A stretch of DNA of 35,977 nt. Source: Chloroflexota bacterium (GTDB lineage Bacteria > Chloroflexota > Limnocylindria > Limnocylindrales > CSP1-4). How positions within the stretch are numbered: position 1 is the stretch's first letter; the number at the start of each line of letters is the position of its first letter. The stretch covers positions 425-36,401 of the forward strand of contig PMIP01000064.1 in NCBI GenBank assembly GCA_003158295.1, written 5' to 3'. Positions 16,151 to 29,827 of this stretch are shown here, piece by piece. Under the pieces are notes generated by a model. It was not told where the DNA came from and ran no database searches. It saw nothing but the letters and a program-made list of their open reading frames with translations. A program made the position numbers and the translations under genes.

Positions 16151-16700
16151 CTCGAAGCTCCTCGCGAAGCCGCCGCATCGCCAGCCGGAGCCGCGAGCGG
16201 ACAGTCTCAAGTGGCACACCGAGCATCTCGGCTACTTCCGCGACCGGGTAGGCGAGGTAGTGGTGGAGCACTACCACGGCGCTCTGGTCAGCTGGCAGGT
16301 GTTCGAAGGCGCGGACGACATCGAGCCGTTCGGTACGGCCCGGAGCGCTCGGACGGCGGCCGGCAGGCTCGATCTCCGCGACATGGAGTGGCGACCTCAA
16401 CAAGCGCCAGGGCGACGACCGCACTCGGAGCGCCTCGTGGACAACGATCCGGCGGAGCCAGAAGAGGGTGCTATCCGCAGACCGCACCTGAGCCCGGGAC
16501 CGCCAGGCCCGCTCCAGCGCGAGCTGGGTCGCGTCCTCCGCCTCGGCGAAATCATGAAGGATCAGGAACGCGAGCCGGATCAGGTCCGGATAGCGTTCCA
16601 CCATCAACTGTTCGAGCCAGCCCTCGGCCAGCACTTGCATAGGCGCGATCTCGATGGCCATCTGCACCCTCGGCCCATCCCTTGCGGTTTGATTCTTCAC
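16143..16700 (-). CDS. ECF-type RNA polymerase sigma factor
   Basis: YPDLIRLAFLILHDFAEAEDATQLALERAWRSRAQVRSADSTLFWLRRIVVHEALR (region 2) and VVRAFEHLPADQSAVVVLHHYLAYPVAEVAEMLGVPLETVRSRLRLAMRRLREEL (region 4). Confidence 0.9.
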   Translation of the reverse strand: MKNQTARDGPRVQMAIEIAPMQVLAEGWLEQLMVERYPDLIRLAFLILHDFAEAEDATQLALERAWRSRAQVRSADSTLFWLRRIVVHEALRVRSSPWRLLRSPLHVAEIEPAGRRPSAPGRTERLDVVRAFEHLPADQSAVVVLHHYLAYPVAEVAEMLGVPLETVRSRLRLAMRRLREELRDA

Positions 16701-23882: not shown

Positions 23883-24107
23883 TGCTACACCTGGTTGCGC
23901 GGTTCAGCGGCTCACGAAGGCCAAGGCGGCGTGCAACCGCCACGAGACGCACAGATCGGGACGAACCGCCAGATTATAGGCGGCCCACCGCGCGGGAGAC
24001 ATCGGTCGTGGCAATGCCCGCCTTCAGTGCGGTTCCGCGGCGAGTGCGTTCCAGTCAAGTTACCGCCACAGGCGCAGCCGCGGCCCGTGTCGTTTCGGCG
24101 CGGCGCT

Positions 24108-25010
24108 CTAGGAGGACTTGCCCTCAGAGCTCTTGCTCATGCCCGTCTGGATCATCGAACTGACGGGCCCGAGCAGTTGCGTGAACTCGAGGGGAATCAC
24201 GAACTTGGTCGCGGGACCGCTGCCCAGCGCCTTCAATGCATCCAGGTACTGCAGCGTCATCGTCTTCTGATCGATGCCGCGTGCCGCCTGGAAGATCGTC
24301 TGGAGCGCCTCGCTGAAGCCTTGAGCGCGAAGGATCGCAGCCTGCCTGTCGCCCTCAGCGCGGAGGATGGCCGACTGCTTGTCGCCTTCCGCAACGTTGA
24401 TCGTGGCCTGCCGGGTACCTTCCGACTCGGTGATGACCGCACGGCGGGTCCGCTCGGCGGAGAGCTGCCGGTTCATCGCTTCCTGGACCGCCGGCGGCGG
24501 CAGGATCTCGCGGATCTCGACGGTGGTTACCTTCCCGCCCCAGCGCTCGGTGACCTCGTCGAGCTTGAGGCGGAGCGTTTCGTTGATACGCTCGCGCTGC
24601 GAGAGGACGTCGTCGAGCGGGATGTCGCCGATGACCGACCGGAGCGACGTCGCGGCCACGCCCTGCAGAGCGCCCGGGAAGTTGGCCACGTTCACGATGC
24701 TCATCAGCGGGTCCGCGATCTTCCAGTAGATCAGGAAGTCCACGCTGAGCGGGGCGTTGTCCTTGGTGATCGCGGTCTGGCGCGGCACCTCGATGAACTG
24801 CTCGCGCAGGTCCACCCTGATGCCTTGGTCGACGATCGGAATGAGGAAGCGCAAGCCCGGGTCCCTAACCAGGCCTTGATTGGTCTGGCCCCATCGCTTG
24901 ACGACCATGCGCTCCCATTGCGCAACCACGCGGAATGACATTGCCGAGAAGAAGATCACGAGGATCGCAACGACGATCAACGCGACCAGGGCCACAGACG
25001 CAGCTTCCAT
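24108..25010 (-). CDS. SPFH domain/stomatin-like protein (slipin/QmcA type)
   Basis: N-terminal TM; FRVVAQWERMVVKRWGQ...DPGLRFLIPIVDQGIRVDLREQFIEVPRQTAITKDNAPLSVDFLIYWKIADP...GDIPLDDVLSQRERIN; coiled AEGDKQSAILRAEGDRQAAILRAQG. Confidence 0.95.
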   Translation of the reverse strand: MEAASVALVALIVVAILVIFFSAMSFRVVAQWERMVVKRWGQTNQGLVRDPGLRFLIPIVDQGIRVDLREQFIEVPRQTAITKDNAPLSVDFLIYWKIADPLMSIVNVANFPGALQGVAATSLRSVIGDIPLDDVLSQRERINETLRLKLDEVTERWGGKVTTVEIREILPPPAVQEAMNRQLSAERTRRAVITESEGTRQATINVAEGDKQSAILRAEGDRQAAILRAQGFSEALQTIFQAARGIDQKTMTLQYLDALKALGSGPATKFVIPLEFTQLLGPVSSMIQTGMSKSSEGKSS

Positions 25011-25077
25011 CCCCTGAACCTCCAGTCGATATTCGCTACAAAGGCGCCATAGCCAGCTGCCGATCGCCCGGCAGACC

Positions 25078-26688
25078 CTACTCCACCCGCTCGACGATGA
25101 GCGTCAGGCCTTCCTGTCTGATGACTCGAACGTGTGATCCGCGGGATACGCCCTGACCGTCCGAGGTCCGAGCCGTCCACGACTCGCCGCCAACGTACAC
25201 CGTGCCGGTCGGGACCAGATCCGCCTGGACCTTGCCCGTCTTGCCCACAAGTGTGACCGTACCGACCATCCCCGACCCGGCGGGGACGGCCAGGTGCCGC
25301 ATCTGGAGCAGGGTTCGCACGAGGACCAGCCCGTAGAGCGCCGCGGCCACCGTCATCGTGATGATGATCGGCCAGGCCACGGCGACGCCCGGCAGATACG
25401 GACCGGGTGACCCGTAGAACGCCACCGCCCCAATCAGGAAGCTGGCCAGGCCGCCGACGGTCAGCAGGCCGTGGCTGGGAACGGTCGACTCGAAGACGAG
25501 CATGAAGATCCCCAGCACGACCAGGATCACTCCGAGGATGTTCAGGGGCAGGCTGCCCGCTCCGTAGAACGAGAGCGCCAGCGACGCGGCTCCAAGCAGG
25601 CCCATAAGCAGGGTGGGATGGAAGAACTCGATCAGCACGCACAGGACGCCGATCACCAGCAGGATGAAGGCAATGTTCGGGTCGTCCAGAGTGTGGAGGA
25701 ACCACTGGATCGGGTCTTCGCCGATCGTGACCGTCGTGGCGCCCTTGGTGTGGACGACGACAGATCCGGCCGACGTCGTGACGGTCTGGAGGTCGGCGAG
25801 GTTCAGCACGTCATCGATGCTGTTGGCGATGCCGTTGACGGCATGGGCATCGACCGCTTCCTGGGCCGTGAAGGACTCCGCCTGCGCGACCGTCTTGACA
25901 GCCAACGCCACCGCCAAGGGATCGGGATGCCGCTCCTGAACGATGCTCCGCATCGTGGCGATGGCGTCGTTCATGACCTTGGTGGCCTCGGTCTGGCTGG
26001 ACACGGCGGCGATATCCTGGCCCCCGGCCGCCACCGGCGATGCGGCACCGATGTTCGTGCTTTGGGCCATGTAGGCCAGGTTCGCCGAGAGCGTGATGAA
26101 GGTGCCCGCACTGGCCGCCTTGGCGCCGGACGGACCGACCCACACGATGGTGGGGATCTTCGAATGCAACGCGGCGTCGATTCGCAGCATCGCGTCCTCG
26201 CTGCCGCCCAGCGTGTCGAGCTGGATGATCACGGCGGCGGCCCCATCGGACTCGGCCCGGTGAATCGCCCCGGCCACGTGGTCTGCCATCACGTCGTCTA
26301 CGACGCCGCTCGTAGGTACGACGACCACCTCGGGACCAGCCGGCGCCGCAATTGCGCCCGTCGGCCGTGGCGTCGGCAAAGGCTGCACCAAGTTGGCTCC
26401 ACTGCCGCTGGTCCTGGCCATGCCCACGAGCCCGAGAAAGCCTGCGGCTACGACCAGCGTGGCCGCCAGCCTGGCAAACGCGGAGGCCGAGCCCCGCAGC
26501 GACCGCACTCCGGCCGCGAGGGCCGGCGCGAAGTCGAAGACCCCCACTCCCGCACGCTCCTGCTGCACGGTCCAGGGCAGAGCCGCGGTCTCGTCCGGGA
26601 GGGGCGGTGTCCGGCTCTCGGCGGCGAGCCGTCTCAGGCGGCCTTCCATCTCGATGTCGGACCCATTCTCGATATCGGAATCGCTCAT
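25078..26688 (-). CDS. NfeD family protein (ClpP-like protease + membrane + C-terminal OB domain) with anti-sigma-like N-terminal extension
   Basis: MSDSDIENGSDIEMEGRLRRLAAESRTPPLPDETAALPW...FARLAATLVVAAGFLGLVGMA, then VVVPTSGVVDDVMADHVAGAIHRAESDGAAAVIIQLDTLGG...SGAKAASAGTFITLSANLAYMAQSTNIGAASPV; C-term GMVGTVTLVGKTGKVQADLVPTGTVYVGGESWTARTSDGQGVSRGSHVRVIRQEGLTLIVER. Confidence 0.9.
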   Translation of the reverse strand: MSDSDIENGSDIEMEGRLRRLAAESRTPPLPDETAALPWTVQQERAGVGVFDFAPALAAGVRSLRGSASAFARLAATLVVAAGFLGLVGMARTSGSGANLVQPLPTPRPTGAIAAPAGPEVVVVPTSGVVDDVMADHVAGAIHRAESDGAAAVIIQLDTLGGSEDAMLRIDAALHSKIPTIVWVGPSGAKAASAGTFITLSANLAYMAQSTNIGAASPVAAGGQDIAAVSSQTEATKVMNDAIATMRSIVQERHPDPLAVALAVKTVAQAESFTAQEAVDAHAVNGIANSIDDVLNLADLQTVTTSAGSVVVHTKGATTVTIGEDPIQWFLHTLDDPNIAFILLVIGVLCVLIEFFHPTLLMGLLGAASLALSFYGAGSLPLNILGVILVVLGIFMLVFESTVPSHGLLTVGGLASFLIGAVAFYGSPGPYLPGVAVAWPIIITMTVAAALYGLVLVRTLLQMRHLAVPAGSGMVGTVTLVGKTGKVQADLVPTGTVYVGGESWTARTSDGQGVSRGSHVRVIRQEGLTLIVERVE

Positions 26689-27323
26689 CTGGTGCCCCCT
26701 TCCGCGGAATCGATCCGGCGGCGAAGCGCCTGCAGGGCGGCATGATGTCTCGACTTGACGGTTCCGATCGGGATGCGCAGGCGATCGGCAATCTCAGCCA
26801 GCGATAGGTCCCCCCAGTAGCGCAGGATCACGACCATCCGCAGCTCCTGGCTGAGAGCCGAGAGGGATCGGCCGACTGCGTCGCGAGCCAGGGCGGCCCT
26901 GAACGGGTCGCCGCCCTCGAGATCGAACTCGTCAAGATCGAGGGTCCGTCGCCGGCTTCGCTGGCGGAGCCGCGTGCGGCAGACGTTGACGAGGATCTGG
27001 CTGAACCAGGCGTGAAACCGGTCTTTCTCGCGCAGGCCGGCCCAGCCACGCCAGGCTCGGACGGACGCTTCCTGGACCGCATCCTGGGCCTCGGCGGCAT
27101 CCGCCATCAGGTAGCCGGCCAGGCGGTACGCCATGGAGAGCTCGCCCTCCAGAGCGGCCGCGAAGACAGAGTCGATAGCGCGATCCCGCACGGCGGGCGG
27201 CGCTGCGGAGGCGCGAACTGCTTGCGCTCCCAGGTAGCTCTCTTTGACGAACATGCCACGCTCTGATGGCGGCCCGGGCGGGTCGCTCATGAGTGTGACT
27301 CGCAGTTCTGGCGATCGGTTCAC
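26685..27323 (-). CDS. ECF-type RNA polymerase sigma factor
   Basis: GELSMAYRLAGYLMADAAEAQDAVQEASVRAWRGWAGLREKDRFHAWFSQILVNVCRTRLR and LSALSQELRMVVILRYWGDLSLAEIADRLRIPIGTVKSRHHAALQALRR. GTG start overlaps the upstream stop; its own stop overlaps the NfeD start (ATGA). Confidence 0.92.
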   Translation of the reverse strand: MNRSPELRVTLMSDPPGPPSERGMFVKESYLGAQAVRASAAPPAVRDRAIDSVFAAALEGELSMAYRLAGYLMADAAEAQDAVQEASVRAWRGWAGLREKDRFHAWFSQILVNVCRTRLRQRSRRRTLDLDEFDLEGGDPFRAALARDAVGRSLSALSQELRMVVILRYWGDLSLAEIADRLRIPIGTVKSRHHAALQALRRRIDSAEGGTR

Positions 27324-27958
27324 TGGTGAGCTTCCTCGCCCGACCGACGCAACGCGCCCCCTGGAGCGGAGTCCGGCCCGTCGATCGCGTCGAGCACCAG
27401 CTGGCTCCAGGTCTCCATCAGATCGTAGACGCCCCGCACGGCCTCGATCCGCTCGAAGGAGCCGCTGAGCTTCTCCGTCTCACGCACTCCAACCGGTCGA
27501 CCGGACGCCTCCGCCAGATAGACCAGACCGAGGTGATGGATTCCGACGTCGACGGTGTCGTCGTTGAGCAGGCCGACGAACTCGAACGGGGGCACGAAAC
27601 CGGCGTCCAGCTCCTCACGCCACTCGCGCTCCAGACCGCTCCGGGGCGAGTCGTCTCCCGGGTTGAGATGTCCTCCGATGCCGATCGTGTAGTGATCGTG
27701 CAGCCGGGCATCCCCGCCGGCCCGCGTCCGCTTCATCAGGAAGATGCGGTCGCCGTCGCGAAGAACGAGGTACGGGATGATCTGCTTGAGCGTCCGATCC
27801 CTCTCGGCATCCGCTCTGGGGACGTACTTCCCAGCCTCGTCGACCCGTCGCAGGATCCCCGCCACCTCGTCGCGCCGAACTCCTCGCCAGGCGACCACGC
27901 CGTCGAAGAGGCTCTCTCGCGGGACCGCATATACGAGCTCCTGGGCATCCTTGCTCAT
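27320..27958 (-). CDS. NUDIX-domain protein
   Basis: YAVPRESLFDG...LKQIIPYLVLRDGDRIFLMKRTRAGGDARLHDHYTIGIGGHLNPGDDSPRSGLEREWREELDAGF (Nudix-box-like); ATG overlaps upstream stop. Confidence 0.85.
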   Translation of the reverse strand: MSKDAQELVYAVPRESLFDGVVAWRGVRRDEVAGILRRVDEAGKYVPRADAERDRTLKQIIPYLVLRDGDRIFLMKRTRAGGDARLHDHYTIGIGGHLNPGDDSPRSGLEREWREELDAGFVPPFEFVGLLNDDTVDVGIHHLGLVYLAEASGRPVGVRETEKLSGSFERIEAVRGVYDLMETWSQLVLDAIDGPDSAPGGALRRSGEEAHQ

Positions 27959-28842
27959 GAGCGATCCGACTCCACCAGCCGCTGCCGGGCGGCCGACAAA
28001 CGGGTCAGAAGCGCCGCCTCGTCCGGATCTCCGTCGTGCTCCAGTTCGGCCAGCCATAGATCCAGGACATCTCTCAGGTCTCGCAGCCGGGCGGCGATAG
28101 CCTCGGCATTCGTCGCCGCGATGCCCGCACCCATGGCAGGCTCCCCACGGGCCAGTCGGGTCATGCCCGCCCACCCGGTCGCTGCCAGAGCCTCGGCCGC
28201 TCCCCAATCCTCGCGTTCGGGCTCGCCCGGTCCACCGGCAACCGACTCCACGAGCGCCGCCGAGACGATGAGTGGCATGTGGCTGATCGCCGCGACTGCG
28301 GTGTCGTGGGCGCGAGCCTCCATCGGGATCTGGATCGCGCCACAGGCCTCGATGAGTTCGCCGATCCGCTCACCGTCGCAGAGCCGCGCAAAGCGACCCA
28401 GAACGGTCACCCACGGCCGTTCCACGAAGAGGTCCGGCAGGGCGGCGCCGTAGCCACTCAGCTCTCGACCCGCCATCGGATGGCCGCCGATGAAGGGCAG
28501 ACGTGCGGCGTCGGCCCTGGCCACGATCCGCGCTTTCGCGCTGGCCACGTCCGTCACGGTGCAGTCCTGAGGCAGGGAGCCGCGGAGCGGGCCGGCAAGC
28601 TCGTCGATGAGGTCCAGGCAGATCAAAGGCGGCGCGGCGAGAACGACCATCTCGGCGTCCCGGACGGCTTCCTCCAAGGTGGTGGCGGCCACCGTCACGG
28701 CTCCGTCCGCCACGGCACGTTCGACCGGCGCCCGGCTGCGGCTCCAGGCGGTCACGTGCCATTGGCCCGGCTCGCCTCGCTCGTGAAGGGAGCGGGCGAT
28801 CGAACCGCCGATCAGACCGAAGCCAAGGATGGAGAGTCGCAC
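27955..28842 (-). CDS. Prephenate dehydrogenase
   Basis: GTG 28842: VRLSILGFGLIGGSIARSLHERG...MVVLAAPPLICLDLIDELAG...CTVTDVASAKARIV...PFIGGHPMAGRELSGYGAALPDLFVERPWV. Confidence 0.92.
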   Translation of the reverse strand: MRLSILGFGLIGGSIARSLHERGEPGQWHVTAWSRSRAPVERAVADGAVTVAATTLEEAVRDAEMVVLAAPPLICLDLIDELAGPLRGSLPQDCTVTDVASAKARIVARADAARLPFIGGHPMAGRELSGYGAALPDLFVERPWVTVLGRFARLCDGERIGELIEACGAIQIPMEARAHDTAVAAISHMPLIVSAALVESVAGGPGEPEREDWGAAEALAATGWAGMTRLARGEPAMGAGIAATNAEAIAARLRDLRDVLDLWLAELEHDGDPDEAALLTRLSAARQRLVESDRS

Positions 28843-29131
28843 GACGCCATTATGGCCGGGCGGCCCACCCGCCAGGATCCTCTCGGGGCCTGCGAGTGCC
28901 AGGAGGCCACTCCAGGCCGAGTCCCCGGCCGCTCGGCCCGCGCTGGAAACGGCCTGTGAAGCGCCGCCGCACCTCTCGCCGGACCGAGTGGCCACAGATC
29001 CAGATCGAGATCACCTTCGAATTGACAGGTGCGCGTTCGTCCAAGTGGCGACTAGAATGCGATGGAGCGGCCGCCCGTCGCCTGCCGGCCCGCATGCCCG
29101 GTCTCGCCGCCATGATGAGGACAATTGGGAC

Positions 29132-29827
29132 ATGACCGAATCGTACGGCGAGACCCGACCGATCCGAGTCCTTCTTGTCGACGATCACCAACTCCTGACC
29201 GGCGCCCTGTCCCAGATGCTCAGCCGAGAGCCGGACATCCTCGTTGCGGGTGTGGCCGGCACCGTCGCCGAAGCCAAGGCGATGGCTCGCGAACGCCTCG
29301 ACGTGGTCCTGATGGATTACCGGCTGCCGGACGGTACGGGCGCCGAGGCCACGCGCGCCATCAAGGCCCGTTGGCCGGCCGCCAGGGTCGTGATGCTGAC
29401 CGCCTTGACCGACGACGAGACCGTCCTGGAGTCCATCCAGGCGGGCGCCGACGGCTATCTCACCAAGGACCGAGCAATCGACGAGGTGGTGAGTGCCGTC
29501 CGCGCCGCCTACGCCGGAGAGACTCTCCTGCCGCGATCCGTGATCGTAGGCATCGCGCAACGGGTCGCCGCCGCGAGGGACCGCGGGATCGAGCGGCACC
29601 AGATCGAACCCCTCACTCCGCGCGAGCTCGAAGTACTGAAGGCTTTGACGGAAGGCCTTGCCACGCCGGAGATCTGCGATCGCCTCTATATCGCCCCGAA
29701 CACGCTGCGGACGCACGTCCAGAACATCATGGGCAAGCTTCGGGTGCACTCGAAGCTGGAGGCGGTCGCGTTCGCCCTGCGCCACCGGCTCGTCGAGCCG
29801 CCCAAGTCGGACGACAACCTGTTCTAG
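29132..29827 (+). CDS. NarL/LuxR-type response regulator
   Basis: IRVLLVDDHQLLTGALSQML...DVVLMDYRLPDGTGAEA...ADGYLTKDRA; C-term LTPRELEVLKALTEGLATPEICDRLYIAPNTLRTHVQNIMGKLRVHSKLEAVAFALRH. Confidence 0.95.
   Translation: MTESYGETRPIRVLLVDDHQLLTGALSQMLSREPDILVAGVAGTVAEAKAMARERLDVVLMDYRLPDGTGAEATRAIKARWPAARVVMLTALTDDETVLESIQAGADGYLTKDRAIDEVVSAVRAAYAGETLLPRSVIVGIAQRVAAARDRGIERHQIEPLTPRELEVLKALTEGLATPEICDRLYIAPNTLRTHVQNIMGKLRVHSKLEAVAFALRHRLVEPPKSDDNLF

Follow-up and report, generated by a model that had tools for sequence, protein, structure and literature searches.

Comparative analysis of a 35,977-nucleotide stretch of a Chloroflexota genome (hereafter, the window) suggests that an NfeD-family membrane protease is probably the membrane anti-sigma factor of an ECF sigma factor whose gene overlaps its own, with the NfeD-SPFH assembly acting as the sensor. 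Comparative evidence from gene order, sequence conservation and the kinship of both partners makes this a well-supported interpretation. The initial annotation had envisaged a one-polypeptide stress switch; because the sigma factor is a separate polypeptide, it is, strictly, the anti-sigma and protease parts that would share one chain.

The window comes from a 2.7 Mb genome in 101 contigs, which contains 33 Sigma70_r2 matches and one NfeD of the NfeD1b type. On the minus strand, overlapping genes for a prephenate dehydrogenase-like protein, a NUDIX hydrolase, the ECF sigma factor and the NfeD1b protease form a continuous run that is followed by an SPFH gene (Table 1). The sigma factor matches Pfam Sigma70_r2, r4 and r4_2 and scores above the cut-off of the sigma70-ECF superfamily model TIGR02937; it consists of regions 2 and 4 only, with no fused C-terminal domain. 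The overlap of its stop codon with the NfeD start codon, described in the initial annotation, is indeed present, and we infer from it that translation of the two genes is coupled. The SPFH gene was likewise correctly anticipated; it lies just beyond the stretch that had been delimited earlier, separated from NfeD by a spacer of 67 bp.

Table 1. Features of the sigma-NfeD locus (positions in the window; residue numbers refer to NfeD).
Feature	Position	Strand	Basis
Prephenate dehydrogenase-like gene	27955..28842	-	Named from sequence; conserved position; heads the conserved block
NUDIX hydrolase	27320..27958	-	NUDIX 1.5e-7; GTGA shared with the sigma start
ECF sigma factor, 212 aa, GTG start	26685..27323	-	Pfam Sigma70_r2 2.6e-14, Sigma70_r4 1.6e-14
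ATGA overlap, sigma stop/NfeD start	26685..26688	-	Sequence
NfeD1b membrane protease with anti-sigma-like N-terminus, 536 aa	25078..26688	-	Pfam domains, PDB matches
Conserved core, residues 9-43 (D-x-EM-x-x-RL...PPLP...LPW-x-VQ), proposed cytosolic sigma-binding segment	26560..26664	-	Conservation, dN, relatedness to ECF-coupled N-termini
TM helix, residues ~70-92, in place of the signal peptide of related NfeDs	26413..26481	-	Hydropathy peak 2.01 over residues 70-88
Pro-rich linker, residues 93-118, which may be cleaved	26335..26412	-	Fast evolving
ClpP-like serine protease domain, residues 119-302	25783..26334	-	NfeD1b_N 2.7e-16; 2DEO/3BPP/6M4B
Catalytic Ser193 codon (= PH1510 Ser97)	26110..26112	-	Alignment; invariant in 21
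Catalytic Lys237 codon (= PH1510 Lys138)	25978..25980	-	Alignment; invariant in 21
NfeD integral membrane domain, residues 338-451	25336..25677	-	PF24961 2e-18
NfeD C-terminal OB-fold (SPFH-partner-binding) domain, residues 480-534	25087..25251	-	PF01957 9.4e-16
SPFH (stomatin/HflK-like) protein, NfeD partner	24108..25010	-	Band_7 1.2e-37

The protease is an NfeD1b by its domain order, its Ser-Lys dyad and the SPFH gene in the same operon. The Pfam domains NfeD1b_N (residues 121-302), NfeD_membrane (338-451) and NfeD C-terminal (480-534) succeed one another in the NfeD1b order, all above the curated cut-off, and a PDB search with the protein recovered PH1510-N (1.4e-21) and 1510-C (3WWV, 1.5e-6). 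The assignment of the catalytic serine to the AASAG stretch holds: S193, within GAKAASAGTF, falls in the alignment on the position occupied by Ser in 2DEO and by Ala in 6M4B, a PH1510 chain, and the Ser193/Lys237 dyad, which corresponds to Ser97/Lys138 in the PH1510 numbering (PMC10153343), is invariant across the 21 loci of the genus. AlphaFold2 yielded a poor model of the whole protein from 10 sequences (mean pLDDT 52, pTM 0.34).

Ahead of the protease domain, NfeD carries an N-terminal extension of ~100-118 residues with a TM helix inside it. The extension and the helix are as initially annotated, whereas the length given there, ~80 residues, is revised to ~118 relative to the protease domain. 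The extension comprises a conserved core (residues 9-43), a variable stretch (44-72), the helix and the linker, and A22, P28, L30, P31, L37, W39, V41 and Q42 of the core are invariant in the 21 loci. The core is under purifying selection comparable to that on the protease domain (dN of 0.03-0.16 and 0.07-0.20, respectively), and dN is mostly higher in the linker (0.18-0.61) and in the 44-72 stretch (0.05-0.50). These rates bear on the alternative that the head, once captured, served only to anchor the protein in the membrane and as a translation leader, such that NfeD no longer binds the sigma factor and the latter is controlled by other means. Replacement of a signal peptide by fusion would yield an anchor in any case, and the poor conservation of the 44-72 stretch and of the linker would fit an anchor. 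However, an anchor needs no core that evolves as slowly as an enzyme domain; moreover, the extension and the sigma gene are never found apart in the 137 loci surveyed, and a second, independent capture likewise retained both sigma and head (see below). We consequently consider a mere anchor improbable.

Full-length NfeD is present in all 21 available genomes of the genus, at 60-89% identity, and is in each case preceded by the sigma gene (21/21 loci, 70-91% identity); the overlap between the two genes is retained throughout, measuring 4 nt in 18 loci and 1 nt in the other three. The SPFH gene is located 3' of NfeD in all loci of the genus and in nearly all relatives examined. One genome, G051, contains a second sigma-NfeD locus (L111, G051:C2) of the same arrangement, with sigma and NfeD proteins that are 76% and 66% identical, respectively, to those of the window. 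Most of the genomes are draft assemblies, but many of them show the same arrangement. In the other genera of the family, NfeD is alignable only from residue ~111 and carries an ordinary signal peptide at its start, and the block of prephenate dehydrogenase, NUDIX, NfeD and SPFH genes is found there with neither the sigma gene nor the extension. NUDIX, which directly precedes NfeD in the genera that lack the sigma gene, is the upstream neighbour in the ancestral block; because it adjoins a signal-peptide NfeD in these genera, the sigma gene and the N-terminal segment look as if they had been inserted precisely at the junction of NUDIX and the NfeD protease domain. The concern that such an extension could be ordinary in NfeD homologues with no sigma neighbour is thus not borne out, the relatives having an ordinary signal peptide instead.

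A same-strand ECF sigma gene upstream of NfeD was found in none of 53 other loci of the class and in none of 60 loci sampled elsewhere in the phylum. The survey of sigma/NfeD adjacency across Chloroflexota that had been suggested initially accordingly covers 137 loci, in which extension and sigma gene are both present in 24 and both absent in 113. A Fisher test of this co-occurrence was dropped as evidence because it ignores shared ancestry. As a separate observation, genome G006 (L077), which lacks the fusion, has an ECF sigma gene oriented divergently beside NfeD.

Outside the genus, the pairing was encountered in a genus of another family of the same class (genus g37, family f4), where an ECF sigma gene overlaps NfeD in both available genomes (L101 2212-4262 and L163), by ATGA and GTGA; in the other f4 genera examined, no sigma gene is found at NfeD. 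The g37 NfeD proteins have a different N-terminus (MNERDQDSLGIALARAIDTQRV...), again followed by a TM helix, and their sigma factors form a separate long branch (1.84 changes per column) that is remote from the clade of the window sigma, in a tree whose deep branches are weak. The simplest reading is that the sigma-NfeD fusion was captured twice separately. Such independent recurrence suggests that existing membrane machines can be fitted with ECF sigma/anti-sigma heads.

The origin of the head was approached with a profile of the NfeD N-termini of the genus (A1), which was searched irrespective of gene context in 177 genomes. Nine of the 21 non-self places examined (L138, L140, L141, L143, L145, L153, L154, L157 and G000:C2, i.e. 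L051) coincide with the start of a gene that directly follows an ECF sigma gene, an enrichment with a binomial p of ~2e-12 if ECF-following genes are assumed to make up 1.25% of the background; the remaining places are mostly not convincing genes. Similarity of single sequences is weak (best non-self E of 9e-5 per genome). An HMM of residues 1-60, which leaves out the TM helix, nevertheless separated 13 ECF-downstream N-termini of the same genome from 333 decoy ORFs (AUC 0.93, p 9e-8), with six of the 13 scoring above every decoy; these 13 were not selected by similarity, and eight A1-selected neighbours were excluded to guard against circularity. Alignment of the N-terminus with the unselected ECF-downstream set by hhalign gave 95% with the TM helix and 53% without it. 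In the sigma tree, the clade of the window is sister (100/98) to the sigma factors of L140, L141 and L143, the partners of which begin MNTNDVERRLEALAAASANPDLPP and are among the better A1 matches. The anti-sigma-like character ascribed to the N-terminus by the initial annotation is, then, upheld by profile matches that adjoin ECF genes, by the separation from decoys and by the sigma tree. The profile search against known anti-sigma families proposed alongside gave a different outcome: Pfam returned zero matches for residues 1-118, and the N-terminal profile, searched against the PDB, recovered no solved anti-sigma factor but weak matches, mostly to designed coiled coils and Kelch-like proteins. 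With neither a Pfam-recognisable anti-sigma domain nor, for want of any cysteine in residues 1-118, an HxxxCxxC motif, the segment lacks the marks of zinc-binding and other class I (ASDI) anti-sigma domains.

Taken together, these data support the view that the NfeD N-terminus belongs, as a divergent member, to the ECF-coupled anti-sigma-like N-termini of this lineage: the gene overlaps the 3' end of an ECF sigma gene, and the protein has a related short head and a TM helix, with a similarity that is weak singly and significant as a set. The ECF partners encoded in the same genome share a common design, namely, an ATGA overlap (8 nt in one case), a short acidic/RL/Pro head, a TM helix and a varied outer part, and apparently represent an uncharacterised modular anti-sigma repertoire. 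Many ECF sigma genes of this genome (L008, L048-L071) are overlapped by a gene for such a head, TM helix and variable outer domain (Kelch or unnamed). One of them lies in the window as its second ECF sigma gene (16422-16601, minus strand; L068) and is followed by a gene for a head-plus-TM protein (MPEMTDDQLAEELRKALVAEAL...).

Coincidental neighbourhood, whereby the sigma factor would act on unrelated genes and the resemblance of the N-terminus would be fortuitous, might be invoked given that operons in MAGs are dense and that genes in this genome commonly overlap by ATGA, including upstream in the prephenate dehydrogenase-NUDIX-sigma run. Chance as the source of the overlap and the extension is excluded, however, because both are kept in 21 of 21 loci across NfeD proteins of 60-89% identity and the core changes no faster than the protease domain. 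The block without sigma in sister genera, the discrimination from decoys and the recurrent origin all weigh against coincidence too, which we regard as highly improbable.

If NfeD is the anti-sigma factor, its predicted cytosolic N-terminal segment, residues ~9-43, would hold the sigma factor at the membrane, and the TM helix would join this head to an extracytoplasmic NfeD protease as well as to the membrane and OB domains, which presumably cooperate with the product of the adjoining SPFH gene. Membrane or protein-quality stress would alter the NfeD-SPFH assembly and thereby free the sigma factor, which would then transcribe its regulon, possibly including its own operon; autoregulation is not evident because the sigma gene lies within a chain of overlapping metabolic genes. 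Such a system would have originated by duplication of an ECF sigma/anti-sigma pair into the gap between NUDIX and NfeD, with the head and TM helix taking the place of the signal peptide.

Release in ECF systems commonly occurs by regulated proteolysis or conformational change (PMC4598750). For the window sigma factor, a conformational change, a separate site-2 protease or the proteolytic activity of NfeD itself may each bring about release. In the last case, the Ser-Lys protease would be its own site-1 protease, acting on the linker of the same or a neighbouring subunit, after which a site-2 protease would cut the TM helix and free the sigma factor with the head bound. The invariant dyad, the fast-evolving Pro-rich linker between TM helix and protease, and the M50 site-2 protease candidates present in the genome are all compatible with this route, and RsgI anti-sigma factors provide a precedent, being self-cleaved and then processed by RseP (PMC12203970). 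Yet the substrate known for PH1510 is not PH1510 itself but a hydrophobic segment in its SPFH partner (PMC10153343), the dyad is ancestral and retained in NfeD proteins that have no anti-sigma head, and the g37 proteins share no linker motif. We deem built-in proteolysis rather unlikely, and likewise its fullest version: that assembly or loss of the NfeD-SPFH complex allows the dyad to cut the linker in cis or in trans and so release the ECF sigma factor, so that enzyme, sensor and inhibitor are united in one chain, and that this evolved at least twice.

The closest counterpart of the enzyme is PH1510/PH1511, the NfeD1b-SPFH1 pair of Pyrococcus horikoshii, with the same ClpP-like Ser-Lys protease, membrane domain, C-terminal OB domain and adjoining SPFH gene (PMC2636767, PMC10153343); unlike the latter, the window NfeD is overlapped by an ECF sigma gene and has ~70 predicted cytosolic residues plus a TM helix in place of the signal sequence. 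A cytosolic head with a single TM helix would put the protease domain outside the cell membrane, in contrast to the modelling of PH1510, in which it is on the cytosolic side (PMC10153343). With the putative membrane anti-sigma factors of its own genome, NfeD shares the ATGA overlap, the short D/E-RL-...-P-rich head and the TM helix, but its outer part is a whole polytopic membrane protease with a partner system of its own rather than a Kelch or unnamed domain. The class II anti-sigma factor CnrY of Cupriavidus, with a short two-helix cytosolic segment before its TM helix (PMC4598750), is comparable in the way it works, with no claim of membership, and differs in that the window NfeD carries an enzyme domain; CnrY (4CXF) was not among the PDB matches of the N-terminal profile in what was a sequence search only, the NfeD model having a pLDDT of 52. 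RsgI, the anti-sigma-I factor of Clostridium thermocellum, similarly combines an anti-sigma head, a TM helix and a modular outer domain, which in RsgI9 includes a protease-like domain reported to bind polysaccharide (PMC12203970), but it pairs with sigma-I rather than an ECF sigma factor and involves neither NfeD nor SPFH. An ECF sigma factor is also linked to an NfeD-SPFH operon in Bacillus subtilis, where the NfeD-flotillin operon yuaFGI (NfeD2) depends on sigma-W (PMC2636767); there, NfeD is a regulon member, whereas the window NfeD seems to act as the anti-sigma factor. A literature search for NfeD together with anti-sigma factors found no paper linking them, and what appears to be new is an ECF/anti-sigma variant with an enzyme complex as its outer part.

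The role and the signal of NfeD-SPFH membrane assemblies are poorly defined. If NfeD is an anti-sigma factor, a membrane-maintenance enzyme would become a sensor for gene expression; the cell would read the state of the NfeD-SPFH assembly directly, and what the assembly senses could therefore be tested with a sigma reporter.

With regard to noncoding sequence, an Rfam scan of positions 24000-29200 gave zero matches, and a promoter common to all loci was not evident in the NfeD-SPFH spacers compared throughout the genus. In one subgroup of the genus (L013, L016, L020, L024, L025, L027 and L029), the spacer contains a conserved element around CCCGCTAGAACCGCCCATTTGGGC, which includes a small inverted repeat, GCCC-ATTT-GGGC.
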